A stretch of DNA of 64,000 nucleotides from Deltaproteobacteria bacterium. GTDB taxonomy: Bacteria; Myxococcota_A; Polyangia; Fen-1088. The stretch is taken from contig JAFGPX010000084.1 of NCBI GenBank assembly GCA_016935975.1, positions 1 to 64,000 on the forward strand. Reading direction: 5' to 3'. Below, piece after piece: positions 3,577-63,098 of the stretch. Positions within the stretch are counted from its first letter, which is position 1. Every line of letters starts with the position of its first letter. The translations under genes and the position numbers were made by a program. The notes beneath the pieces are model-generated. The model was not told where the DNA came from and did no database searches. It was given only the letters and a program-made list of their open reading frames with translations.

Positions 3577-4290
3577 ATGAAGTCGAGCTACGACGAGCTG
3601 AAGGAGACGGCGTGGCGGGCCAACATGGAGATCCCGCGCCGGGGCCTGGCCATCTACACCTTCGGGAACGTCTCGGCGTTCGATGCCCAGCGAGCCGTCT
3701 TCGCGATCAAGCCGAGCGGCGTCGCCTATGAGAGTCTCGCAGCCGCTGACATGGTCATCGTCGACCTCGACGCCAAGGTGGTAGAGGGTAGCCTGCGGCC
3801 CTCTTCCGACACGAAGACCCACGCCGCATTGTACAAAGCCTTTCAAGAGATCGGAGGGATCGTTCACACCCATTCCACCTACGCCACGGCCTGGGCGCAG
3901 GCGCGCATGCCGATCCCCATCTACGGCACGACCCATGCGGATCACCTCGCGGAGGACGTTCCTTGTACGGCGCTCATGACTGCCGATGCGGTCCGTGGAG
4001 ACTACGAAGCCGAGACGGGAACACAAATCATCGAGTGCTTCCGCGCGCGTGATCCGACCCAGACTCCGATGGTCCTGGTTGCGGGGCATGGCCCGTTTGC
4101 GTGGGGCAAGACGGCGGACAAGGCGGTGTACCATGCTGTCGTCCTCGAAGAGCTTGCCAAGATGGCGTCCATCACGCGGGGCCTCGATCCCAATGCAGGA
4201 AGGCTGCCAGAGTACCTCGTCCGCAAGCACTTCGAGCGTAAACACGGGAAAGACGCGTACTATGGACAGACGACCGATACGAAGTTCTAG
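3577..4290 (+). CDS. araD: L-ribulose-5-phosphate 4-epimerase
   Basis: Zn-dependent class II aldolase-family enzyme that interconverts L-ribulose 5-phosphate and D-xylulose 5-phosphate, linking arabinose to the pentose phosphate pathway. The 237 residues compare with 231 in E. coli AraD. Zn ligands are visible as His97 and His99 (IVHTHST) and His171 (AGHGPFAWG). Asp78 (SSDTKTH), Asp122 (HADHLAED) and Tyr229 (DAYYG) match the catalytic Asp76, Asp120 and Tyr229. The gene begins 16 bases after araA without a strong Shine-Dalgarno of its own, so it is probably translated from the same transcript. Confidence 0.96.
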   Translation: MKSSYDELKETAWRANMEIPRRGLAIYTFGNVSAFDAQRAVFAIKPSGVAYESLAAADMVIVDLDAKVVEGSLRPSSDTKTHAALYKAFQEIGGIVHTHSTYATAWAQARMPIPIYGTTHADHLAEDVPCTALMTADAVRGDYEAETGTQIIECFRARDPTQTPMVLVAGHGPFAWGKTADKAVYHAVVLEELAKMASITRGLDPNAGRLPEYLVRKHFERKHGKDAYYGQTTDTKF

Positions 4291-4321
4291 CCACTGGAAC
4301 ACACGAGAGGAAGGGGCAACC

Positions 4322-5866
4322 ATGCGACGAGTATCACAGCTATCGGGACTATCGGGACTGCTAGTGACGGTTTTCGTGTCGACTCGCGCCTTCGCCGAGG
4401 AGCCCACAGACGCTGACGCCCAACAACCTGCTGAAGAACCCCAAGAAGCCACCAAGGCAGAGCAGCCGCTGCCGGTCGCGCCAGCTCCCACAGGAGCTGC
4501 GCCAGCCGCCGCTGTTCCAGCCATCGCAGCCCTCCCGCCGGCCACCAAGCCGAAGGTCGGCGACCTCTCCGTGCACGGATACTTCCGTGGCGGTTGGGGC
4601 GCGAGCAACCAGAAGGGCCGCATGACCTGCTTCGGACTCAGCATCAGTGGGGGATTGAAGTCCAAGTACCGGCTCGGCAACGAATGCGAGCAGTGGGGCG
4701 AGTTGCACATCACGACCGTCGCGTACGTGGGCGAGGATGGCACGGTCGCGAGCCTTCACTTCATGCCGACCGCCTACATACCGACGACCGAAATGGGCTA
4801 TTCTCCGACCGCGGTCACAAACTCCCCGGCCGAATACACAACCGCAACCGGAGCGACTGTGGCCTTCCCCAACCTCTACGCCGACATCCAGGGGATTCCC
4901 TGGCTTTTCGGAGGGACCGCCTGGGTTGGCACACGGTACTACAAGCGTGAGTCTTTCTACATCAGCGACTTCTTCTATTGGAATCCCTCGGGTGTGGGTG
5001 GGGGTATCGAGGACTTCAGCCTCGGTCAGGTCTGGGAGTCGGCCCCGGCCATGTTGAGCGATCTGCGGTTCAGCTATGGCCTCTTCGCGGTCGATGGCCA
5101 GCCAAAGCCGAACGATGCCAGCTCACCGCCGTTCCCGATGAAGTTCGACCTTGGCATTCGCAACGATCTCCAAGTTCGAGGGTTCCGCCCCTACGAGGGC
5201 GGTGAGCTCCAGATCGGATTTCAGTACATCCACAATTGGACCCACAAGGACGATGCCAGTGGCAACACCAACACCCATAGTGGTTGGGGCGTAACTGTCC
5301 AGCATGTACAGGATCTTCTTGGCGGCAACAACAAGCTGGCTTTTCAATATGGCAAAGGTGGAGGAACTGGGTTTGGAACGCTTGCGCGGTTCTACTACCC
5401 CGACTTCTCGCTCTATTGGGGTGAGAGTGAATCGAGGATGCGACTCGTCGATGTGCTCACCATCCAGCCGACCGGCTGGCTTGGTGCGCAGGCCGGCGTC
5501 GTCTGGCAGCGCGACGACATGGGGACCGGAGTGAGCGGGGCCAAGACCGATTGGTACTCTGCCGGCGCACGCCTGAGCTTCGCCGCCACCGAGCACTTGA
5601 AGCTTCTCGCTGAAGCCGGCTATGATCGCATCAAGAAGGACAACGGTTCGGACCCGAGCTATCTTGCCAAGTTCACCATCGCCCCCGCAATTGCCGCAGC
5701 CAGGGGATTCTGGGCTCGCCCGGAGCTGCGCCTCTTTCTCACGATGGCGATGTGGAACGATAATGCTGCAATATCCGGTGTCGATTCGGGCAACATCTAC
5801 AGGGACACCTACCCCAACTATAGGAATGGCTACATTGCCGGCCTCCAAGCCGAGGCGATGTGGTAG
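4322..5866 (+). CDS. LamB-type maltoporin family sugar porin
   Basis: Outer-membrane carbohydrate porin, predicted to pass arabinose or arabino-oligosaccharides to the periplasm. The 514-residue protein starts at 4322 behind GAGGAAGGGG. A signal peptide probably ends near AFA (residue 25). A Pro/Ala/Glu-rich extension (about 26-75) precedes the barrel. Barrel motifs are distinctly maltoporin-like: VHGYFRGGWG, SKYRLGNECE, WVGTRYYKRESF and DFFYWNPSGVGGGIED; E. coli LamB has SKYRLGNECE and a closely matching FYYWDISGPGAG region. The substrate is inferred from the operon (araA, araD, galM), not from the sequence. Sucrose porin ScrY also carries an N-terminal extension, but that one is coiled coil rather than proline-rich. 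Confidence 0.88.
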   Translation: MRRVSQLSGLSGLLVTVFVSTRAFAEEPTDADAQQPAEEPQEATKAEQPLPVAPAPTGAAPAAAVPAIAALPPATKPKVGDLSVHGYFRGGWGASNQKGRMTCFGLSISGGLKSKYRLGNECEQWGELHITTVAYVGEDGTVASLHFMPTAYIPTTEMGYSPTAVTNSPAEYTTATGATVAFPNLYADIQGIPWLFGGTAWVGTRYYKRESFYISDFFYWNPSGVGGGIEDFSLGQVWESAPAMLSDLRFSYGLFAVDGQPKPNDASSPPFPMKFDLGIRNDLQVRGFRPYEGGELQIGFQYIHNWTHKDDASGNTNTHSGWGVTVQHVQDLLGGNNKLAFQYGKGGGTGFGTLARFYYPDFSLYWGESESRMRLVDVLTIQPTGWLGAQAGVVWQRDDMGTGVSGAKTDWYSAGARLSFAATEHLKLLAEAGYDRIKKDNGSDPSYLAKFTIAPAIAAARGFWARPELRLFLTMAMWNDNAAISGVDSGNIYRDTYPNYRNGYIAGLQAEAMW

Positions 5867-5889: not shown

Positions 5890-7056
5890 ATGTTCATGAA
5901 ATTCGTTCTCTCCGTCCTTGCTCTAGCGTTTGCGCCAACGACGATGGCGATGGCCGCCGGACCCACCAAGAAGCCGGATCCCCTGAAGAAGACTACCCCC
6001 TCGGTTACAGAGGCTGTCTTTGGCAGTCTTGCGGACGGCAGAAAGGTCACGCTCTACACGCTGACCAACGCCTCCGGTGCCGAGGCGAGGATCATCAACT
6101 ATGGTGCGATCGTCGTATCGCTGAGAGTTCCGGATCGGCACGGCAAGCTCCGCGACGTGGTCCTCGGCTACGACGATCTTGCGGGGTACCTGAAAGACAA
6201 GGATTTCTTCGGAGCCACCGTCGGCCGCTACGGCAACCGCATCGGTGCCGGCAAGTTCACGCTCGACGGCAAGACCTACCAGCTGGATCTGAACAACGGG
6301 CCCAACCACCTGCACGGGGGTGCACAAGGCTTCTACAAGAAGCTGTGGAAGGCCGAGCCAGTCAAGGGCAAGGCGGAGCCCGGCGTGAAGCTCACGTACG
6401 TGAGCCCGGACGGTGAGCAGGGATATCCCGGCACGCTCACGCTGGCCCTCACCTACACGCTGACCCGCAAGAACGGCCTGCGCATGGACTATGTGGGAAC
6501 GACCGACAAGCCGACCATCCTCAATCCAACCCACCACTCGTACTTCAATCTCAGCGGCGATCCGACGCACAAGATCCTGGACGAGGAGCTCACCATCATT
6601 GCGGACAAGACGACCCCGGTGGATGCGGGCCTGATTCCCACGGGAAAGCTGGCGGATGTCGCTGGCACGCCGATGGATTTCCGCAAGCCCACCGCGATCG
6701 GCGCCCGCATCGACGCCAAGGACGAACAGCTCGGCTTCGGCAAGGGCTACGACCACAACTGGGTCCTACGCAACCCCGGCAAGAAGGTGCGCAAGGTGGC
6801 CGAGCTCCGCGATCCGACCAGCGGCATCGTGATGCAGATCCTCACCGACCAGCCTGGGCTGCAGTTCTATTCTGGCAACTTCCTGAATGGCACCATCCGT
6901 GGGAAAAACGGCGCGGCCTATCAATACCGAACCGCGGTGGTACTAGAAGCGCAGGTCTTCCCGGATGCGCCCAACCACCCCAAATTCCCGAGTGCGGTCC
7001 TCCGGCCCGGTCAGCGCTATCGCCAGACCACGGTCTATCAGTTCTCCACCCGGTAG
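5890..7056 (+). CDS. galM: Secreted aldose 1-epimerase (mutarotase)
   Basis: Interconverts alpha and beta anomers of aldoses such as galactose or arabinose. The start at 5890 has GAGGAG seven to eight bases upstream and gives 388 residues with an N-terminal signal peptide (about 24 residues), so it probably acts in the periplasm. Family motifs are NNGPNHLHGG (His142), NPTHHSYFNLSG (His216, the likely catalytic acid), GKGYDHNWVLR, GLQFYSGNF and VVLEAQ (Glu353, the likely catalytic base). It sits 23 bases after the porin gene. A periplasmic mutarotase would act on sugars as they cross the envelope, before AraA, which prefers a particular anomer. Confidence 0.93.
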   Translation: MFMKFVLSVLALAFAPTTMAMAAGPTKKPDPLKKTTPSVTEAVFGSLADGRKVTLYTLTNASGAEARIINYGAIVVSLRVPDRHGKLRDVVLGYDDLAGYLKDKDFFGATVGRYGNRIGAGKFTLDGKTYQLDLNNGPNHLHGGAQGFYKKLWKAEPVKGKAEPGVKLTYVSPDGEQGYPGTLTLALTYTLTRKNGLRMDYVGTTDKPTILNPTHHSYFNLSGDPTHKILDEELTIIADKTTPVDAGLIPTGKLADVAGTPMDFRKPTAIGARIDAKDEQLGFGKGYDHNWVLRNPGKKVRKVAELRDPTSGIVMQILTDQPGLQFYSGNFLNGTIRGKNGAAYQYRTAVVLEAQVFPDAPNHPKFPSAVLRPGQRYRQTTVYQFSTR

Positions 7057-7140
7057 ACGCAAACACGCGACAGGCACGCCGCAGACGCCGAACTGGAAGT
7101 GACGCCTGGTCTGCCATCGTGCTTTCTCGACCATGATGTC

Positions 7141-9183
7141 CTATTGCGTGTCTGCTTCTGCACGCGCGGATTTGATGGCTTCGGAGAGCCTTGTCAGCAT
7201 TTCTGAGATCCTGTTTGCCCGTGTCTGATCGCCCGCGGATCTCGCCAAGGCAAGCGCATGCTGAAGAGCCCCATTTGCCTCGATCCAGTGCCCCTTCTTC
7301 AGAAGGGCGGAGACCAAATTGTCGAGGTGCTCAACGGCACCGGGGTTCGTCTTCAGCGCCCGACGGTAGTGGAGAATTGCTGCGTCGATCTCTCCCACTC
7401 CCGCAAGCATGACACCAAGGTTGTTGTGCGCGTTCGCGTGTTCGGCGTCAAGTTGCAGCGCTTTCCGGAAATGCCCCATGGCCTCGTCGTGTCGATTCCT
7501 CTTCGCGAGCAGGAGACCAAGGTTGTTGTATGCGTCGGCATATTCTGGGTGAAGCTCCAGTGCTATCCGATAGTGAACCATAGCCTCTTCTATCCGTCCC
7601 GTGCTTGCGAGAAGGTCAGCGACGTTGTAGTGGACCTCCGCGTGATCGGGATGAAGCTCCAATGCTTGCAACAAGTGAGCCATCCCCTCCTCCGGGCGTC
7701 CATTGCGCGCGAGCAGTGCGCCGATGTTGTTGTGCGCGTCGGCTTGACGGGGATTGATCTCCAACGCCCTCCGTAGATGTGTCGCAGCCTCCTCTGCTCG
7801 CCCCATGTCCATGAAAAGAAGGCCGAGGTTGGCGTGGGCATCGGCCTTCTGTGGGTGATGCACAAGTGCCTTCAGCAGATGATCCATGGCCTCGTCGTGT
7901 CGCCCCGTCTCCATGAGCAGAAGACCGAGATGGGTGTACGCCATCCAGCAGCTCGCGTTCCTGGACATCGTGGTGCGATACAGGGTCTCGGCGTCGGAAT
8001 ACATGTGGCTCTGTTTCCAGCTCAGCATGGAGAGGACGAGAAGCAGGGTGCCCGGGACCGCGGGGCGGAGCCAGCGCAACGACGTGCCCTTCAGCTGATC
8101 CGTTGCCTTTGCGAGACAGGCGGCTGCGACCGTTATCGGCGCTATGGTGGCCAGGTACTGGAAGTGGTCAGCCACATATGAATACGCGAACGGGTAGACG
8201 TTGAAGAACCCCAACGCGGGGAAAAGCGTGATCACGAACAGGAGCAGCACCGCAAGGGGCGTCCTTGAGCGGTGCCGCAGTACCCAGAACGGGCCCGCGA
8301 AGAGGACAAGCGCGGCCGGGAACAAGTACTGCCTCACGTCGATGGAGTCCATGGACCAACGGGGGTAGATGAAGATCAGGTTGGCAGGCCAGACGAGTTT
8401 GTAGATGTAGAACCAGACTGCGCGGCCGGCGACAAGGCAGCGTTCAGCGAAGGTGAGGTCGAACCCGCCGCCTGCTGCACCGATGAATGCTCGTTCCACC
8501 CAGGCCGTGAACAAGCCCGAGATTGCCCCTATGACAAAGAATGGGGTCAACGGCATGACGTCCCGCCTCAACGACACAGTCCCCCGCTTCCACCAAAAAA
8601 CCACGAGGAGCGCAGCGGGCAGGGTGGCGATCGCGCTCTTGGCAAGCAACCCGAGGGCAAACAGCAGCAGAGCCGTGGCATAGTGTCTTGTCTCCCGGTT
8701 GTCGTCAAAGCTCAGGTACGCCAGGGCAGCGGCGATGTAGAGAACACCGGAGAGTGTGTTCTTCAGTTCGGTTATCCATGCTACCGATTCGACCATCACA
8801 GGGTGAAGCGCGAATATCCCCGCCGCGAGCCACGCTCCACGGATTCGCAGTCTTCCTAGGACTGCAACCAGGAGTAGTGCAGAGGTCGAGTGAAGCAGGA
8901 TGTTGAGCAAATGGTAGCCGACTGTGGATTCGCCCCAGAGACGGTATTCCAGCCAGAAGACCGTATGCACCAGCGGGTAGTACTGCTGCGTGGCCCCAAG
9001 CTGCGTCCAGATACTCGCGAGACCTGCGACCGAGCGGAGAGTAGGCTTCGTCATGTGCGCAGCGTCGTCCCAGACCGGCTGGCCATTCCACGCCGGTTGG
9101 TAGGCGAGGAACGTTGCTGCGACCAGTAGCAACGCAAACGCCCAATCACGGTTTTTCCAGAAGTGCTGGGCGGCTTTCGGCAT
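7141..9183 (-). CDS. TMTC-like polytopic membrane protein with TPR repeats
   Basis: The 680-residue protein starts at 9183, where CAGGAG lies nine bases upstream; the frame stays open much further upstream but without protein-like sequence. The N-terminal half has around ten hydrophobic segments and the motifs WNGQPVWDDAAH, YYPLVHTVFWLEYRLWG, FALHPVMVESVAWITELKN and LAKSAIATLPAALL. These mark the GT-C-like family related to eukaryotic TMTC proteins and bacterial dolichyl-phosphate-mannose-type transferases. The C-terminal half has about eight consecutive 34-residue TPR units (for example HYRIALELHPEYADAYNNLG). The first-loop Asp residues of DDAAH resemble the acidic pair of GT-C enzymes. Lipid-linked sugar transferase activity is an inference. 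It converges on galM and looks independent of the ara operon. Confidence 0.82.
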   Translation of the reverse strand: MPKAAQHFWKNRDWAFALLLVAATFLAYQPAWNGQPVWDDAAHMTKPTLRSVAGLASIWTQLGATQQYYPLVHTVFWLEYRLWGESTVGYHLLNILLHSTSALLLVAVLGRLRIRGAWLAAGIFALHPVMVESVAWITELKNTLSGVLYIAAALAYLSFDDNRETRHYATALLLFALGLLAKSAIATLPAALLVVFWWKRGTVSLRRDVMPLTPFFVIGAISGLFTAWVERAFIGAAGGGFDLTFAERCLVAGRAVWFYIYKLVWPANLIFIYPRWSMDSIDVRQYLFPAALVLFAGPFWVLRHRSRTPLAVLLLFVITLFPALGFFNVYPFAYSYVADHFQYLATIAPITVAAACLAKATDQLKGTSLRWLRPAVPGTLLLVLSMLSWKQSHMYSDAETLYRTTMSRNASCWMAYTHLGLLLMETGRHDEAMDHLLKALVHHPQKADAHANLGLLFMDMGRAEEAATHLRRALEINPRQADAHNNIGALLARNGRPEEGMAHLLQALELHPDHAEVHYNVADLLASTGRIEEAMVHYRIALELHPEYADAYNNLGLLLAKRNRHDEAMGHFRKALQLDAEHANAHNNLGVMLAGVGEIDAAILHYRRALKTNPGAVEHLDNLVSALLKKGHWIEANGALQHALALARSAGDQTRANRISEMLTRLSEAIKSARAEADTQ

Positions 9184-55307: not shown

Positions 55308-55333
55308 GTAGGCGCGATGAATCGCGGCCCTAC
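55308..55333. repeat. REP-like palindrome between convergent genes
   Basis: GTAGG-CGCGA, TGAA, TCGCG, a two-base bulge and CCTAC make a near-perfect hairpin between two convergent genes. The core resembles the hairpin at 30575-30598 (GTAGGGGCGCGATTCGTCGCGCCC), suggesting members of one short palindromic repeat family. It could also help end transcription from both sides. Confidence 0.5.
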
Positions 55334-57915
55334 TACCGCAGGCACACGGCCAGGATCTGCTTGAGATCGGTCTGGCCGGCGATGGCCTTGTCGATGCCGT
55401 CTTGAAGCAAGGTGGTCATGCCCCCCGCCACGGCCAGCCTGCGGATTTCCTCGACGGGTGCCTTGGCCACGATGGCGCGCTTGATGGCGTCATCGGCCAC
55501 GAGCAGCTCGTGCACGGCAAGGCGGCCCTTGAGGCCGGTCTTGGCGCACTGGTCGCAACCCGCTCCGCGCCACAACTTGAAATCGGGTTTTCCGACCCCG
55601 CGGGCCGCGGCCCCTTCCTCACCGAAGGCTTGCACGATTTCCTCGATCTCGTCGGTAGCGGGCTTGTACTGTTCGCGGCATTTCTTGCACAGCCCGCGCG
55701 CCAGACGCTGCGCCAGCACGCCGAGCAAGGCGTCGGCGAAACTGAAGGGATCGAGGCCCATGTCCACGAGACGGGTGATGGTTTCGGGAGCGCTGTTGGT
55801 GTGCAGGGTGGAGAACACCAAGTGGCCGGTGAGCGACGCCTCGACGCCCGTGTTGGCGGTTTCCTTGTCGCGCATCTCGCCGACCATGATGACATCGGGA
55901 TCGGCGCGCAAGAACGAGCGCATGGCCGCGGCGAAGTCCAGGCCTATCCTGGGTTGCACCTGCACCTGCCGCAATCCCGGCTGGGTGATCTCGACGGGAT
56001 CCTCGGCCGTCCAGATCTTCATGTCCGACGTGTTGATGGTCCCCAAGGCCGAGTGCAAAGTCGTGGTCTTGCCCGACCCGGTTGGCCCCACGCACAGGAT
56101 GAGGCCGTACGGCTTGGTGATGAGGTTCCTCATCTCGCGCAGGTTGCGCTCGCTCATGCCCATCTCGTCGAGGGGAATCGGCTTCGAGGCGGCCAAGATA
56201 CGCATGACCATGTCCTCGTTGCCATTCACGGTCGGCATCGTGGCGACACGCAACTCGATGGTACGGTCGCGCATGCGGAACCTGATCTTGCCGTCCTGGG
56301 GCTTGCGCCTCTCCGAGATGTCGAGCCGAGCCATGATCTTGAAGCGCGCCACGAGCGGGTTGCGGAAGATGGCCGGAATCTCCTGATAGTTCACGCAATC
56401 GCCGTCGATGCGGAAGCGGATGCGCGTGTTCTCCTCCTTGCCGTAGGGCTCGATGTGGATGTCGGAGGCGCCGCGCTGAAAGGCGTCGATGATGACCTGG
56501 TTGGCCAGCTTGATGATGGTGCTGTCGGATTCCTCGCCGTCCTGAGTGTCGTCGGCGACATCCTCGACCGCTCCCGTGGTTTCGTCGGTGGACAGCTCGC
56601 GAATCAGGGAATTGACGTCGGGCCGCATGCCGTACGACGTCTCGATGCAAGCCATGATCTCGTCGCGGAAACCGACGTGCAGGGCGATCTCGCGATCGGT
56701 CTCGACCGAGCGCAGGGAATCGGTGCGCGCGATGTCGTGCGGGTTGTCGATGACCACGACGAGCCGCGGGCCGCGGCGCTCGATCGGCACCGCACAGATC
56801 TTGCGCAAGAACTCCACGCGCAGGCGCTGACGGAGATCCTCCGGGATGGTCTGCGACCCGGTGAAGCGATAGAACGGCACGCCGTAGTACTGCGAGATCG
56901 ATTTCTCCACGTCGGCGCGCGCGATGCCGACCTTCTCGATGAGATAGCGGCCGACGTCGGACCCAGCAGCCTCCGCCGCGCTCGCCGCCTTGGCCAGAGC
57001 CTCGGCCTGCATGATGCCGGCCTCGACCAGGTAGTCCCACTTGCCGGCGGGCTTTGCCGACGGGCGTTCCTTGCCGCCGTCGCGGGCGGGACTTCTGCCG
57101 GCGCCGGGCCGGCCGGCCGCGGACACGGAGGAGGCGGCGGTCTGGGACGGGGGCGTCACGACGGTCTTGCCGCTCGCCGGGGCTCTGGCTGCCGGCGGCG
57201 CGGGCGTGACCTTCGCGGCCGCGGGCGTGGGCGTGGATTTGGCCGCCGGAGGCGTGGGCGTGGCTCTCGTGGCCGGCGGAGTAGGTGTGGACTTGGTCGC
57301 CGGGGGCGTGGGCGTGGACTTCGTAACCATCGGCGAGGGCGTGGCCGACGAGCGATGACCGAGGTTCAGGGCCAAGGCCGAAGCCACCGCCTCGGCCACC
57401 TCGCCCGCGTCGACCAGATCGCGGGAAGAGAAGCTCCCGGTCTCGTCCGCGCGGTTGGCGACAAGCAGCACCCCCAGAAGCTGCGTGTCGTCGCGCAGGG
57501 GTGCCAGCATCACCCCGCGCAGACGCACGTCCAGCCACTTGTCCAGACGCTCGTCGGGGCGCAAGCGCGAGTGCAGGCGCACCAACTCGCCCAGATCCCA
57601 GACGTTGCGAATGCTGGCGGGTGCCGGCGTGGTCGCGGCCCAGCCCACGAGGTTGTCCGGCTCGCTCGGCAGGCGCAGCTCGCGCATGGAATCGACGACC
57701 CAGGCCACGGCGTGCAGCTGGTTCTTCCGGTCCGGAACGAAGATCGCAGCCCGCTCGGCGCCGAAAAACCCCGCGACACGCTCCATGCCATCGAACAGCA
57801 GGCTGTCGAGCGAAGGCAGGCCCGCGAGGTAGGTGCAGAGCTCGGTCAGTTGCGCGCGCTTGTCTTGCTGGGCGGATTCGCCAGCCATCTGGCGCAGCCA
57901 AGTCGCAGCATCCAT
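55333..57915 (-). CDS. GAF-domain PilB/GspE-type assembly ATPase
   Basis: ATPase that drives pilus or secretion-filament assembly. The start at 57915 has AAAGGAG eight bases upstream. The 860 residues comprise a GAF domain (about 25-185, ERVAGFFGAERAAIFVPDRK), a repeat linker (about 200-290, units like STPTPPATK), the N-terminal T2SSE domain (about 310-450, LIEKVGIARADVEKSISQYYG) and the ATPase domain. The latter has Walker A GPTGSGKTTTLHSAL, the Asp box, Walker B RADPDVIMVGEMRDKET and the His box STLHTNSAPETI. A zinc tetracysteine motif (CKKC and CDQC) near the C terminus is typical of PilB. GAF fusion is unusual. It diverges from a chemosensory operon, suggesting joint control of motility. 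Confidence 0.93.
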   Translation of the reverse strand: MDAATWLRQMAGESAQQDKRAQLTELCTYLAGLPSLDSLLFDGMERVAGFFGAERAAIFVPDRKNQLHAVAWVVDSMRELRLPSEPDNLVGWAATTPAPASIRNVWDLGELVRLHSRLRPDERLDKWLDVRLRGVMLAPLRDDTQLLGVLLVANRADETGSFSSRDLVDAGEVAEAVASALALNLGHRSSATPSPMVTKSTPTPPATKSTPTPPATRATPTPPAAKSTPTPAAAKVTPAPPAARAPASGKTVVTPPSQTAASSVSAAGRPGAGRSPARDGGKERPSAKPAGKWDYLVEAGIMQAEALAKAASAAEAAGSDVGRYLIEKVGIARADVEKSISQYYGVPFYRFTGSQTIPEDLRQRLRVEFLRKICAVPIERRGPRLVVVIDNPHDIARTDSLRSVETDREIALHVGFRDEIMACIETSYGMRPDVNSLIRELSTDETTGAVEDVADDTQDGEESDSTIIKLANQVIIDAFQRGASDIHIEPYGKEENTRIRFRIDGDCVNYQEIPAIFRNPLVARFKIMARLDISERRKPQDGKIRFRMRDRTIELRVATMPTVNGNEDMVMRILAASKPIPLDEMGMSERNLREMRNLITKPYGLILCVGPTGSGKTTTLHSALGTINTSDMKIWTAEDPVEITQPGLRQVQVQPRIGLDFAAAMRSFLRADPDVIMVGEMRDKETANTGVEASLTGHLVFSTLHTNSAPETITRLVDMGLDPFSFADALLGVLAQRLARGLCKKCREQYKPATDEIEEIVQAFGEEGAAARGVGKPDFKLWRGAGCDQCAKTGLKGRLAVHELLVADDAIKRAIVAKAPVEEIRRLAVAGGMTTLLQDGIDKAIAGQTDLKQILAVCLR

Positions 57916-58223
57916 GTGAGAAACTCCTTTGGTTTTCAATCGGTAGTCCGGACGCGAAAATGAAGCCGCGGCACAAGCACGGCTCGAAGTCGAACAACTG
58001 GTGCCAGTCATGCAGCGCCCGAAGCGCCACCGCCTCCTGGGCCGGCGACTTCGACGACGGCTTCACCGGGCAGAACATCGGCGCCAACCGCTCGAAGCGG
58101 AGCCGCCTCACCGCCGCGTGCGTCGAGTGTGTAAGGCAGGGTAGGACATCCGACTTTGGCCTCGGACGTGCGGCGAATCGTTGTAGACTGATCGGCCACT
58201 CCGGGCGAAAGGATCAACGGCTG
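57916..58223. other. Divergent control region of the PilB and chemosensory genes
   Basis: About 308 bases between the divergent starts. It should hold promoters for both transcripts, but I could not identify a convincing -35/-10 pair. A reading frame in phase with the response regulator begins at ATG 57961 and includes two CxxC pairs (WCQSC and CVEC); it lacks a ribosome site and is more likely spurious than an N-terminal extension. Confidence 0.4.
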
Positions 58224-59456
58224 ATGTCAGGAGAAACCATACTTGTCGTCGATGACAGCCCGACCATCTGCAAGCTCGTCGAGTTGACGCTGACCAAGGC
58301 GGGCTACCGGGTCGAAACCGCGCGCACCGGAGAAGGTGGCGTGGACGCGGCGCAAACCTGCCAGCCGAACCTCATCCTGCTCGACTACCTGCTGCCGGAT
58401 CTCAAGGGGGACGATGTGTGCCGCGCCATCTCGGGCAATGTCCGCCTCGCCGCCGTGCCCGTGGTCGTGATGAGCGCCAAGGGGGAAGACATCAGCGAGT
58501 GCTTCGCCGTCATGCCCAACGTGGTGAACATCATCGCCAAGCCGTTCTCCCCGGAGGCCCTGCTGGCCGTGGTCAACCACACCTTGGAGAAGGCGGGCAG
58601 CGAGCCTGCCGGACCCATGGCCAGCTCGGGATCGGACGGTCGCATCGACCTCGTGGCGCTCATCAGCGATGAGGCCAAGGACGAAAGCCCGCCGCGGCCG
58701 GCCCTGGATCCATCCGCTTCCTTGGCCGGCGACCTGGCGGTCGTCTCGATCGCCGACGTGCTCCTGCTGCTGCAGGACCGCGGCTACACGGGCACGGTCA
58801 ACCTCACGCACGCTCGCGCGCAAATGGACATCTACCTCGGCCAGGGCCGCGTCGATTTCGCGGGCGCGCACGGCGTGGCCGAGGAATTCCTGCTCGGCGG
58901 CTTCCTGGTGCGCGGCGGGCACATCACGCAGGAGGCGCTGACGCAAGCCCTCGAGGAGCGGCGCAGCGGCGGCGGCGGCGAGTTGCTCGGGGCCTACCTG
59001 TGCGGCCGTGGCTTGCTGCCACCCGCGAGCCTGCGCAAGGCCATGGCGAAGCAGACCGCAGCCCTGGTCTACGAGAGCCTGCGCTGGGGCAACGGCCGCT
59101 TCGCCTTCCGGCGTTTGAACGAGCTGCCCGAGATGGCGCGCGAGGCATCCCTCGGGCTAGCGGTCGACGGTCTCATCCTCGAGGGCCTGCGGCGAGTCGA
59201 GGAATGGCGCTTGATCGAGCAGGAGATCGGCGATTTCGACATGACCTTCGTGCGCAACGAGGACAAGCTGTCGAGCTTCGGCCGCGGGCAGCTTCTGCGC
59301 GAAGAAGCCGCCATCGCCGAGTTGGTCAACGGCAAGAACACCGTGCGCGACCTCATCCAGATCTCCAACATGGGATCCTACGACGTGACCCAGGTGCTCT
59401 TCCGCTTGCTGCGCAGCAAGCTGATCCGGCGGCGGGTCGCGCCGGTGATCGTGTAG
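58224..59456 (+). CDS. Response regulator with DUF4388-type output domain
   Basis: The 410-residue protein has an N-terminal receiver domain (1-120) with Asp10-Asp11 (ILVVDDSPT), the phosphoacceptor Asp54 (LILLDYLLP) and Lys in IIAKPFSPE. The C-terminal region (about 165-400) resembles the PATAN/DUF4388 module (LAGDLAVVSIADVLLLLQDR, MDIYLGQGRVDFAG, LLREEAAIAELVNGKNTVRD). Proteins like PatA and Myxococcus motility regulators share this layout. It is the first gene of a four-gene chemosensory operon and is probably the output regulator phosphorylated by the CheA downstream. AAGGA lies 11 bases before the start, a rather long spacing. Confidence 0.87.
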   Translation: MSGETILVVDDSPTICKLVELTLTKAGYRVETARTGEGGVDAAQTCQPNLILLDYLLPDLKGDDVCRAISGNVRLAAVPVVVMSAKGEDISECFAVMPNVVNIIAKPFSPEALLAVVNHTLEKAGSEPAGPMASSGSDGRIDLVALISDEAKDESPPRPALDPSASLAGDLAVVSIADVLLLLQDRGYTGTVNLTHARAQMDIYLGQGRVDFAGAHGVAEEFLLGGFLVRGGHITQEALTQALEERRSGGGGELLGAYLCGRGLLPPASLRKAMAKQTAALVYESLRWGNGRFAFRRLNELPEMAREASLGLAVDGLILEGLRRVEEWRLIEQEIGDFDMTFVRNEDKLSSFGRGQLLREEAAIAELVNGKNTVRDLIQISNMGSYDVTQVLFRLLRSKLIRRRVAPVIV

Positions 59457-59458
59457 TC

Positions 59459-59947
59459 ATGCCGTCTCCCGCCCCACTCGATGTGGTTTTCTTCGAACTG
59501 CGCGGTCTGCGCTGCGCCCTGCCCCTGGCCGTCGTACGCAAAGTGCTGCCCATGCGGGGCGTGACGCCTGTGCCGCTCTCGCCCCCGGTGGTGCGCGGCA
59601 TCGCCCCCGTGCACGGGTTCATCCTTCCGATTCTCGATCTCGGCGTCTGTTTTTCGCCGGCAGGCGACGAAACGGCCGAAGCCGCGACCTATCGCTCGCA
59701 CACCGACAAGCTGCTGCTGGTCGAGACCGCTCGTGATGTGGCGGGCGAGGCGACACGCGCCGCGCTCGCCGTCGATCGCGTGATGGGCATCGGCACCGTA
59801 GACGAGCAGCACAGCCGCCTGCCGCCGTCGCGGCCTCCCTTTCTGTCGGCCACGGTGCTCGACGCCAGCGGCCCGGCGCTGCTTCTCGATATCGGACGCA
59901 CCCTCGACTACGTCAAAGACGCGATCGGCACGGTGATTGGATCATGA
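59459..59947 (+). CDS. CheW-like chemotaxis adaptor
   Basis: The 162 residues form a CheW-type beta-barrel that links receptors to CheA. Motifs are VVFFELRGLRCALPLAVVRK, VVRGIAPVHGFILPILDLG (the typical GxxxxRGxxxPVxDL-like region) and the C-terminal PALLLDIGRTLDYV. It starts two bases after the response regulator stop, and the MCP start overlaps its stop by four bases, so translation is coupled. The normal GxINLRG motif is degenerate (VVRGIAPVHG), so receptor specificity may differ from the canonical system. Confidence 0.88.
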   Translation: MPSPAPLDVVFFELRGLRCALPLAVVRKVLPMRGVTPVPLSPPVVRGIAPVHGFILPILDLGVCFSPAGDETAEAATYRSHTDKLLLVETARDVAGEATRAALAVDRVMGIGTVDEQHSRLPPSRPPFLSATVLDASGPALLLDIGRTLDYVKDAIGTVIGS

Positions 59948-60762
59948 GCGAAACAACCGAACTCGAAGATCTCCTTGCCACTTTGCAGGCGGCGGCGCAG
60001 GGCGATTTGACCGTGCGAGCCAAGCCGAGCAGCGGAGCGCTCGGGCAAGCGACAGCCGCAGCCAATGCGCTGCTGGCCGCGCTCGAGGAACGCGCCGCGC
60101 AGGTATCCTACGCCGCGACCTGCGTGGCCATCGCGGCCGAGGCGACCAGCGCCGCCTTGCCCGAAATCGCGGAAGGCATGGCCAGACAACAGGCGGCCGT
60201 GGCCGAAATCGCCCGGCGTCTCAAGGCGCTCGAGGCGCGTTCCGAGGAGATCGGCCAGATCGTCGAAATGCTCGACGACGTGACCTCGGAGACCAACATC
60301 CTGTCGCTCAACGCCGCCATCGAGGCCTCGCGCGCCGGCGCGCAGGGCAAGGGTTTCGGCCTGGTGGCCGAGGAGGTGCGCAAGATGGCCGAGCGCGCGG
60401 CCTCGGCCACCAAAGACATTGGCGCCTACATCGAGACCATCGCCAACGCCACCGGCGACGCCACGCGCGCCATCGAGAGCGTGCGCAACATCGCCGACCA
60501 ACTCGCCACGCTCACCACGCGCGCCGGCAGCGAGGCGGCCGTGCTGACCGAGGTGCGCAAGGCACTGCTGTCTGCCATCGCGCAATTCCGTTTCGCCGGG
60601 CAGGGCGAAACCGAGATCACGCGCGTCCTGCACGCGCGGCGCAGTGAGCTGGCACGCGTGCTGTCCCCGCTCGCGCCCCTGGTGGCCTCGGCGCGCACGC
60701 CGCTCGGCGAGGCCTTGCGCAACTTGCTCGCCGCCCTGGGCAAGAGCCCCGACGGCGGCTAG
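59944..60762 (+). CDS. Soluble methyl-accepting-type chemoreceptor
   Basis: The 272-residue protein has no membrane segment and no recognised sensor domain. Residues about 5-60 form a coiled coil of HAMP-like character (LLATLQAAAQGDLTVRAK). The rest is the MCP signalling hairpin with the tip ETNILSLNAAIEASRAGAQG and GFGLVAEEVRKMAERA. The shortness and lack of a sensor mean it probably detects a cytoplasmic signal or couples to another protein. It overlaps CheW by four bases and lies 11 bases before CheA. Methylation sites cannot be judged by eye; CheR and CheB are absent from the window. Confidence 0.9.
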   Translation: MSETTELEDLLATLQAAAQGDLTVRAKPSSGALGQATAAANALLAALEERAAQVSYAATCVAIAAEATSAALPEIAEGMARQQAAVAEIARRLKALEARSEEIGQIVEMLDDVTSETNILSLNAAIEASRAGAQGKGFGLVAEEVRKMAERAASATKDIGAYIETIANATGDATRAIESVRNIADQLATLTTRAGSEAAVLTEVRKALLSAIAQFRFAGQGETEITRVLHARRSELARVLSPLAPLVASARTPLGEALRNLLAALGKSPDGG

Positions 60763-60773
60763 GTCCATCCGCC

Positions 60774-63098
60774 ATGGCGGGAAAACCCGACAACAGCGAC
60801 GGCGCCGGCAGCCTACCCGCCCAAGAGTGGGGTGCCGGCGAAACCGACGTCCTGCGCAGCCTCTTCCTGGAGGAGGCCGAGAAGTACCTCGGCCATATCA
60901 TCGAGGCGCAGAAGCTGCTGTCGCACGCCTCGGAGACGACACTCGAGATCTCCCCAGACGTGGTCGACGTGCTCTTCCGCCACCTGCACACGCTCAAGGG
61001 CTCGGCCGGCTCGGTCGGCTTCGATGCGGTGTCGCGGGCTGCCCACGAGCTAGAGGAACTGTGCACCGAGATCCGCCGCGGCCAGCTCGCGCCGACCTAT
61101 GGAATTCTCGAGCGTATCGACGAGGGCGTGGCCGAGATCCGCGCCCTGCTCACCAGCGCACGCCTGGCGGCGCCACGCGCGCGCGGGCGCGAGCCGTCCG
61201 AGCCCGCGTCCGCGCCACGCGAGGCGCCCGAGCGGCGCCGCACCTCGGATCGCCGCACCGTCAGCGACCGGCGGGCCGGCGGCGAAGGTTTCTTGCGGGT
61301 CGAGGTCGAGCGCCTCGATGCCTTGCTCGAGAGCGTGGGTGACCTCGTGATCCTGCGCACCCGCCTCGAGCGCCGCGCGCACGACCTGGACAGCGTGCTG
61401 CGCGACCTGGCCGCCACCCGGCAGGACATGCGGACGGTGCAGAGCGCGCTGGCGACCGATCTCGCGGCGACCGCGAGGCACGGGGAAACCGGCCGGCTCC
61501 TCGATCGCCTGGGCGAAGTCGACGTCGAATTCACCGACTCGCTGTCCTTCCTCGAGCGCTCCGTGCGCCGCCTGGCCGACGACGCCGACGCCATGCGCCG
61601 GACGTCCGAGCACATCGAAGGACAACTGCGCCGCGCCCGCTTGGTGCCGCTCGAATGGGCCTTCTCCCGCCTGGGCTCGGCGCTGCGCGAGCTCGAACGC
61701 AGCTGCCACCGCCAGGCCGACCTCTCGGTTTCGGGCGGCGAGATCGAGCTGGACAAGGCCATCGTGGACCAGCTCGCGGAACCGCTGCTGCACCTTCTGC
61801 GCAACGCCATGGCCCATGGCATCGAATCCGCGCAAGTGCGCAGCGAGCGCGGCAAGCCCGCGCGCGGGCGCATCGGCATTCGGGCTTCGCTCGAATCCGA
61901 TTTTGTCTTCGTCGTCTTCGAGGACGACGGCGGCGGCATCGATCACGAGGCCATTCGTCGCGCCCTGCAAGCCTCGGGGCAAGCCCGCAACGAGACCGAC
62001 CTCAGCGAGGAAGCCCTCATGACCGCGATTTTCGAGCCGGGTTTCTCGACGCGCCCGCAGTCGGACTCCCTGGCCGGGCGGGGCATGGGCCTCAACATCG
62101 TCAAGCGCGCGGTCATGCGTCTAGGCGGCGAGGTCAAGGTTGAATCCAAACTGGGCGCGTTTTCGCGCTTCCGCCTCTCGCTGCCGCTGACCGGCGCCAT
62201 CACCCAGGGGCTGCTCTTCAAGCTGGGCGGCCAGGTCTACGCCGTGCCCGCGGCCCACGTCATCGAGGTGCTGCCCATCGGCCACAACGTGCTGGCCGGC
62301 AGCGTCGACAAGGCCAGCGACAGCGGCGAGCTGCCCGCGCTCAACGGCGTCAGCGTGCCCATTCTCAAGCTGCATGCCCTGCTCGGCATCGAGCTGCCGC
62401 CCGGCCGGCGCGCCGCCGCCATGCACGTGCGCTATGCCGGCCGCAACTTCCTGCTCACCTGCGACAAGGTGATTGGCCCGCGCACCGTGGTGGTGCGGCC
62501 ACCGGGCCCGCTCATTGGGCTCATTCCCATCTACGCGGGCGTGACCGCCTCGGGCGCCGGCAAAGCCCAGCTCGTGCTCGACCTCGGCCCCCTGGCCGAC
62601 ATCGCCTACGGCACCACCAAGTTCGTGCCCACGGCGGCGCGTCGCGGACAGCCGCGCGTCCTGGTGGTCGACGATTCGCGTCTGGCTCGCGAGGCGGCGG
62701 CCCGCCAGCTCGCCGCCTCGGGCTATCAGACCGTGCTCGCCGAGGACGGCTGGGAGGCCTGGGAGATCCTGGGCGAGCGCCGCTTCGACGCCGTGGTCAC
62801 CGCGCTGGAAATGCCTCGCCTCGACGGCTTCCAGCTCATCGCGCGCATCCGCCGCGAGCCCACCTTGCGCGCCCTGCCCGTGATCGTGCTGTCCTCGCGC
62901 ACCTCCCAGACCGCGCGCGACCGTGCCGTCGCGGCCGGCGCCAACGTCTTTCTGCCCAAGAGCCGCCACCGCCGCAGCATGGTGACCGCCGTGGACGCGT
63001 GCCTGCGCGAGCAAGCCGACGGCACGACGCCCGACGGCGGCCCGCGCGCTTCGGGCAGCGGCGAGTTCGCGATGCTCGAGACCAAGCAAGGGCAGTGA
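60774..63098 (+). CDS. Hybrid CheA histidine kinase with receiver lacking phosphoacceptor
   Basis: The 774-residue protein has an Hpt domain with His72 in RHLHTLKGSAG, a basic Arg-rich linker (no clear P2), a dimerisation domain, the ATPase (HLLRNAMAHGIESA, FEDDGGGIDHEAI, GRGMGLNIVKRAV), a CheW domain (GAITQGLLFKLGGQVYAVPA) and a C-terminal receiver (about 625-740). The receiver keeps VLVVDDSRLA and the Lys in FLPKSR, but the phosphoacceptor position reads VVTALEMPRLDG: Ala677 (codon GCG, 62802-62804) replaces the expected Asp. So that receiver cannot be phosphorylated in the normal way and may be a pseudo-receiver for protein contacts. The kinase itself appears intact and should phosphorylate the regulator upstream. 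Confidence 0.93.
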   Translation: MAGKPDNSDGAGSLPAQEWGAGETDVLRSLFLEEAEKYLGHIIEAQKLLSHASETTLEISPDVVDVLFRHLHTLKGSAGSVGFDAVSRAAHELEELCTEIRRGQLAPTYGILERIDEGVAEIRALLTSARLAAPRARGREPSEPASAPREAPERRRTSDRRTVSDRRAGGEGFLRVEVERLDALLESVGDLVILRTRLERRAHDLDSVLRDLAATRQDMRTVQSALATDLAATARHGETGRLLDRLGEVDVEFTDSLSFLERSVRRLADDADAMRRTSEHIEGQLRRARLVPLEWAFSRLGSALRELERSCHRQADLSVSGGEIELDKAIVDQLAEPLLHLLRNAMAHGIESAQVRSERGKPARGRIGIRASLESDFVFVVFEDDGGGIDHEAIRRALQASGQARNETDLSEEALMTAIFEPGFSTRPQSDSLAGRGMGLNIVKRAVMRLGGEVKVESKLGAFSRFRLSLPLTGAITQGLLFKLGGQVYAVPAAHVIEVLPIGHNVLAGSVDKASDSGELPALNGVSVPILKLHALLGIELPPGRRAAAMHVRYAGRNFLLTCDKVIGPRTVVVRPPGPLIGLIPIYAGVTASGAGKAQLVLDLGPLADIAYGTTKFVPTAARRGQPRVLVVDDSRLAREAAARQLAASGYQTVLAEDGWEAWEILGERRFDAVVTALEMPRLDGFQLIARIRREPTLRALPVIVLSSRTSQTARDRAVAAGANVFLPKSRHRRSMVTAVDACLREQADGTTPDGGPRASGSGEFAMLETKQGQ

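Follow-up and report, generated by a model that had tools for sequence, protein, structure and literature searches.

A CheA-type hybrid kinase of Polyangia with a receiver lacking only the phosphoacceptor aspartate, a probable pseudo-receiver shared by two genera

The CheA-type hybrid histidine kinase encoded in a 64,000-nucleotide stretch of contig JAFGPX010000084.1 (Deltaproteobacteria bacterium, an uncultured soil organism related to the Myxococcales; assembly GCA_016935975.1; hereafter the window) ends in a receiver domain in which alanine (Ala677, within VVTALEMPRLDG) occupies the position of the phosphoacceptor aspartate, all other catalytic residues being present. Based on orthologues, a tree of the kinases and the constraint on each domain, we consider it probable that this is an aspartate-less pseudo-receiver of single origin, kept for a job independent of phosphorylation, with phosphate left for the REC-PATAN response regulator encoded in the same gene block. 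According to the mechanism that we propose, the phosphoacceptor would have been replaced once, in the receiver of a CheA-receiver hybrid, before two genera split, and the resulting pseudo-receiver would most likely pack against or dock on the CheA dimer, array partners or the REC-PATAN regulator, thereby setting kinase activity or access to the Hpt domain. Loss of the acceptor would remove the phosphate-sink or back-transfer function given by the receivers of other CheA hybrids, so that the phosphate of His72 would be free for the intact REC-PATAN regulator, the presumed output of the locus, which in turn would likely act on the neighbouring PilB-like ATPase. The features concerned are collected in Table 1.

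Table 1. Positions of the kinase, its key residues and the neighbouring genes (window coordinates, except for the genes of class relatives, which are given by locus)
Feature	Position	Strand	Basis
GAF-MshEN-T2SSE (PilB/GspE-like) ATPase, divergent, adjoins the REC-PATAN gene	55333..58011	-	PF01590, PF05157, PF00437
REC-PATAN (Response_reg + DUF4388) response regulator; Asp54 codon 58383-58385	58224..59456	+	Pfam; residue check across relatives
CheW adaptor	59459..59944	+	PF01584; conserved order
Short MCP of 272 aa, its one recognised domain being the signalling domain	59944..60762	+	PF00015; conserved order
CheA-type hybrid histidine kinase, 774 aa	60774..63098	+	ORF and Pfam; Hpt, dimerisation, HATPase, CheW-like, receiver
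His72, phosphorylatable His of Hpt (P1)	60987..60989	+	In HTLKGSAG; His in every orthologue row covering P1
C-terminal pseudo-receiver, residues 629-740	62658..62993	+	PF00072; predicted fold confidently a receiver
Asp633-Asp634, acidic (Mg-binding) pair	62670..62675	+	Invariant in the 11 Ala/Gly orthologues
Thr676 (D-1), hydroxyl residue next to position 677, conceivably a substitute phosphoacceptor	62799..62801	+	Thr in all Ala/Gly rows and nearly all Asp rows
Ala677 at the phosphoacceptor Asp position, codon GCG	62802..62804	+	Sequence, orthologue alignment
Ser707, Thr/Ser switch position	62892..62894	+	Alignment
Lys729, active-site Lys, conserved	62958..62960	+	Alignment
Stand-alone CheY-like genes of class relatives	L074 8329-8751; L077 6812-7183; L078 8233-8739; L079 6041-6412		After REC-PATAN, Pix-like gene set

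All five Pfam domains of the kinase scored above their cut-offs (Hpt, residues 27-124; H-kinase_dim, 174-224; HATPase_c, 336-473; CheW, 478-608; Response_reg, 629-740), giving a complete P1-P3-P4-P5-receiver hybrid. The ATP-binding residues His340, Asn344, His348 and Asp384/Asp385 are present, as are those of the G1 box in the alignment, and by this domain set and its intact histidine and ATP-binding motifs the protein qualifies as a CheA hybrid. The N box itself reads NAMAHG (61803-61820, residues 344-349), with Ala where Asp usually precedes His-Gly; class relatives carry Ala, Thr, Val or Gly at this position and Asp in only two cases, and several of them have Gln in place of His340. The C-terminal domain matched PF00072 with an E-value of 3e-22, and its matches among solved structures were generic receivers only, PleD and CheY among them (E-values of about 1e-14 to 1e-13). 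Compared with a canonical receiver, it has the acidic pair, the Thr/Ser residue and the lysine but not the acceptor aspartate, and it fits the class of aspartate-less receivers or pseudo-receivers. The sequence-only reading had placed the exchange of Asp for Ala at a GCG codon at 62802-62804, which is correct to the base, and had described the acidic pair and the lysine as retained, as Asp633/Asp634 and Lys729 indeed are; the span that it gave to the domain, 62661-63050, locates the receiver but slightly overruns its end at 62993.

Orthologues were searched in 59 genomes (the source genome and relatives) and then in all 18 sampled genomes of the order, which make up one family. In the query's genus and a second genus of this family, position 677 was Ala in ten genes and Gly in one (11 genes from ten genomes: three genomes of the query's genus, one of them with two copies, and seven of the second), and Asp was kept in all 20 rows aligned outside the two genera, two from two further genera of the family (genomes G008 and G004) and 18 from the class; six other genomes of the family, from three genera, had no match at E 1e-100. 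Since the codons differ between genomes (GCG, GCC and GCA for Ala, GGG for Gly), what is shared is the residue and not a base. The source is a fragmented metagenome-type assembly (5.4 Mb in 341 contigs, about 94% complete), in which a sequencing or assembly error at codon 677 would be conceivable; however, ten other genes carry Ala or Gly by varied codons, and GCG lies two base changes away from any canonical Asp codon (GAY). We therefore rejected an error, the chance of which is practically nil. The earlier suggestion that close homologues might turn out to carry Asp, exposing an error here, is answered by the nearest homologues, which lack it too. One genome of the query's genus (G001) has two REC-PATAN/CheW/MCP/CheA blocks on different contigs (L063 and L064), both with Ala, reflecting either a duplication or a mixed bin.

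In a maximum-likelihood tree of 31 CheA proteins, the Ala/Gly rows formed one clade with support of 100/99, with the Asp-bearing G008 and then G004 outside it. Two changes suffice for this tree, read as a step from Asp to Ala in the common stem of the two genera and one from Ala to Gly within a single species, and the loss of the acceptor is, as the tree records it, a single event that predates the split of the two genera. When 318 genomes of the class were scanned for T-[A/G]-[L/F]-E-M-P-[R/S], a search that detects only receivers bearing T-x-L/F-EMP-R/S, receivers were matched in the Ala/Gly clade only (11 matches in ten genomes), and the Asp version of the same motif was present in 40 of the 318. 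The other 14 matches lay in non-receiver frames and were rejected as further Asp-less receivers.

Pseudo-receivers make up about 6% of bacterial receivers, and Asp-less receivers about 4% of those across all life (PMC12632262), so that some Asp-less receivers are expected in a genome. The query genome encodes 70 receiver domains, 65 of them with Asp, the five exceptions being Glu, Glu, Asn, Lys and Ala; the CheA receiver is the sole one of the five seen with all other catalytic residues. The remaining four (L136, L169, L170 and L172, with Glu, Glu, Asn and Lys) show further catalytic changes or have the matched stretch cut short. Among Asp-less receivers surveyed previously, Ala accounts for 9% of replacements, and the second acidic residue is retained in just 29% (PMC4395418). 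The CheA receiver, apparently intact in every other respect, is by its residues unusual among Asp-less receivers.

Constraint on the domain has been strong since the loss. The Asp-Asp pair, Ser, Lys, the Pro at D+4 and the Gly at D+8 are invariant in all 11 Ala/Gly orthologues, and overall 73 of 115 receiver positions (63%) are invariant in this clade, the highest share of the five domains (P1, 56%; P3, 43%; P4, 47%; P5, 56%). The median ratio of receiver to kinase-core protein distance was 0.57 in the Ala/Gly clade vs. 0.99 among the Asp rows; within the family, the pair of Asp rows gave 0.60. These ratios are descriptive, as the pairs are non-independent and the Asp rows cover greater distances. 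Receiver dN was lowest or near-lowest among the domains in most pairs, with plentiful synonymous differences; for example, in the G000-G002 pair it was 0.061, with 38% of synonymous sites differing. Around Lys729, the residues at K-1 (Pro), K+1 (Ser), K+2 (Arg) and K+6 (Ser) are specific to the family or the clade, and DD+4 is Ala or Ser in place of Ile/Val. Several of these changes preceded the loss of the acceptor, since G008 or G004, both with Asp, carry them too. In pseudo-receivers generally, DD+4 and K+2 are among the positions most altered in composition, and K+1 and K+2 affect conformation (PMC12632262). Such early family-wide changes near the site (Ser or Ala replacing Pro at K+1; loss of Ile/Val/Leu at K+2), together with the turn from Ala to Gly in one species, might be taken as signs of a relic that has lost its function and is drifting. 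Against this, the receiver is the most invariant domain of CheA in the clade, its dN is low and its pocket is intact in every orthologue; drift or decay was rejected on these domain-wise measures and is highly improbable. As the constraint since the loss exceeds that on the kinase core, we interpret the domain as a functional pseudo-receiver.

Removal of the acceptor from receivers abolishes canonical phosphotransfer, and a sink role for the CheA receiver is very unlikely, judging from its residues. Yet the domain is retained, and a phosphorylation-independent regulatory or docking role would thus be the simplest reading of it. The sequence-only reading had likewise called the domain a pseudo-receiver, in agreement with a domain that is conserved and has no canonical phosphoacceptor, and had proposed an allosteric or docking role; because the domain is conserved without its acceptor, one or the other is probable. 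An AlphaFold model of P5 with the receiver (pTM 0.51, linker under 50) folded the receiver well but did not place it confidently against P5, and packing of the receiver on P5 in this model was set aside as evidence owing to the low-confidence relative placement.

A ligand or metal pocket would also give the domain a use, if the emptied site (Asp633, Asp634, Glu679, Ser707 and Lys729) or the alpha4-beta5-alpha5 face served to bind an ion or small molecule by which the kinase is switched. All pocket residues except the acceptor are invariant, the beta5-alpha5 stretch FLPKSR..RS.V hardly varies and is specific to the clade or family, and there are precedents in ShkA, which binds c-di-GMP on its pseudo-receiver, CikA and KaiA (PMC12632262). 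However, the pocket residues are equally conserved in the Asp rows, so that their retention can be structural, and the Asp-less receiver of FrzS, also of the Ala type, bound no Mg2+ (PMC1974792), although it is without the second Asp and the Thr as well. We consider such a pocket unlikely. A moved phosphoacceptor, by which the receiver would still take phosphate, on Thr676 beside the lost Asp or else on Glu679 or Ser707, its catalytic Asp pair and Lys having been kept for this, deserves little credence. The catalytic residues besides the acceptor, which phosphorylation would call for, are invariant, Thr676 does not vary within the Ala/Gly clade, and CheY D57N is reportedly phosphorylated at a neighbouring Ser; but relatives that have the Asp conserve Thr676 and Glu679 almost as well, indicating that nothing was gained along with the loss of the acceptor, and one orthologue has Gly in place of Ala. 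A pseudo-receiver acting through contacts remains the reading that we prefer.

The genes around cheA form a conserved five-gene block, in which a divergent GAF-MshEN-PilB/GspE-like ATPase gene is followed on the opposite strand by those for REC-PATAN, CheW, the short MCP and CheA, and the Ala/Gly genomes share this order as far as their contigs reach. The ATPase gene adjoins eight of ten orthologous Ala/Gly loci as well as that of the Asp-bearing G004; the contigs of G001b, G013 and G008 are short and did not show it. The fusion that it encodes has its GAF domain at the N-terminus of a PilB/GspE-like ATPase, and its linkage to the chemosensory block recurs in several genera. The REC-PATAN receiver is intact (Asp54, acidic pair, Ser and Lys) wherever an Ala/Gly genome has a fully readable copy, that of G013 being partly unreadable and that of G015, the species with Gly in CheA, split over two frames (L070 6218-7302) by a frameshift or an assembly error. 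The earlier claim that this upstream regulator is the sole phosphate target holds within the block, where REC-PATAN is the only other receiver and keeps its Asp, but not genome-wide, given the 70 receiver domains, and a receiver encoded outside the locus could be a partner of CheA. Based on gene order and cyanobacterial precedent, REC-PATAN is most plausibly the substrate of CheA, and the PilB-like ATPase would be the likely target of REC-PATAN; work cited in PMC7690835 ties PATAN regulators to pilus motors in cyanobacteria, where one interacts with PilB1 in Synechocystis.

In four class relatives, a stand-alone receiver (frame of 124-169 aa) directly follows REC-PATAN. A profile search of all context ORFs found no stand-alone CheY or receiver gene at the locus in the query's family, and an overlooked CheY was rejected on this basis. 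In the Asp-bearing members of the family, the Thr/Ser position of the REC-PATAN receiver is Ala or Leu (L071 of G008, 4103-5323; L073 of G004, 6600-7772), and since the Ala clade keeps this residue the locus seems to hold two complementary receivers, in a comparison that covers two Asp species only. Conceivably, the receivers specialised after the loss of the stand-alone CheY, one of the two being fully canonical, that of CheA in the Asp lineages or that of REC-PATAN in the Ala clade, and in the Ala clade CheA's own would have become a dedicated phosphorylation-independent kinase control domain; we offer this tentatively, as a doubtful but real possibility.

CheA-receiver hybrids and Asp-less receivers are already known, and what is new is their combination with only the Asp missing; no described CheA pseudo-receiver was found in the literature searched, which comprised papers available without subscription. 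CheA-fused receivers have variously been assigned roles as phosphate sinks, aids to Hpt dephosphorylation or kinase inhibitors (PMC10782961; FrzE, PMC4546325), and the Ala/Gly clade bears on that question: as its receiver is kept without a canonical acceptor, its role there cannot be that of a sink alone. A lineage that has lost only the acceptor and preserved the rest amounts to a natural separation-of-function mutant for CheA-fused receivers, for which the Asp-bearing orthologues, 57% and 49% identical, serve as natural controls.

Considering known systems, Helicobacter pylori CheAY and other CheA-receiver hybrids resemble the query in having a receiver fused to CheA, but in them the acceptor Asp is presumed to be present. 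In the cyanobacterial Pix system (tax1: PixG (PATAN), PixH, PixI, PixJ, PixL), a PATAN regulator, CheW, a receptor and a CheA-receiver hybrid are encoded together, as at the query locus. A stand-alone CheY is common to Pix and the four class relatives, whereas the query's family is without a CheY gene at this locus, and two of its genera have lost the Asp of the CheA receiver. The kinases ShkA and CikA are not CheA but, like the query, carry a pseudo-receiver within a hybrid kinase. Theirs inhibits autophosphorylation (PMC12632262), and ShkA combines a c-di-GMP-binding pseudo-receiver with a true receiver, whereas the query CheA has no further receiver of its own. A receiver is fused in about 34% of CheA, and these have been described as phosphate-sink receivers (PMC10782961). 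FrzE of the Myxococcus xanthus Frz system is similar to the query in being a CheA with a C-terminal receiver accompanied by a CheW-like protein and, in that system, by the receptor FrzCD, in the control of surface motility; unlike the query, which has no acceptor, its receiver is phosphorylated, with a short-lived phosphate, and is thought to be a signal-damping sink (PMC4546325). The receiver of FrzS, a myxobacterial pilus-linked protein, has the same change from Asp to Ala (Ala53), and Asp phosphorylation is dispensable in vivo (PMC1974792); the FrzS receiver, however, is not part of a kinase and is also without the second acidic residue (Ser10) and the side chain of Thr87, whereas the query has lost the acceptor only.
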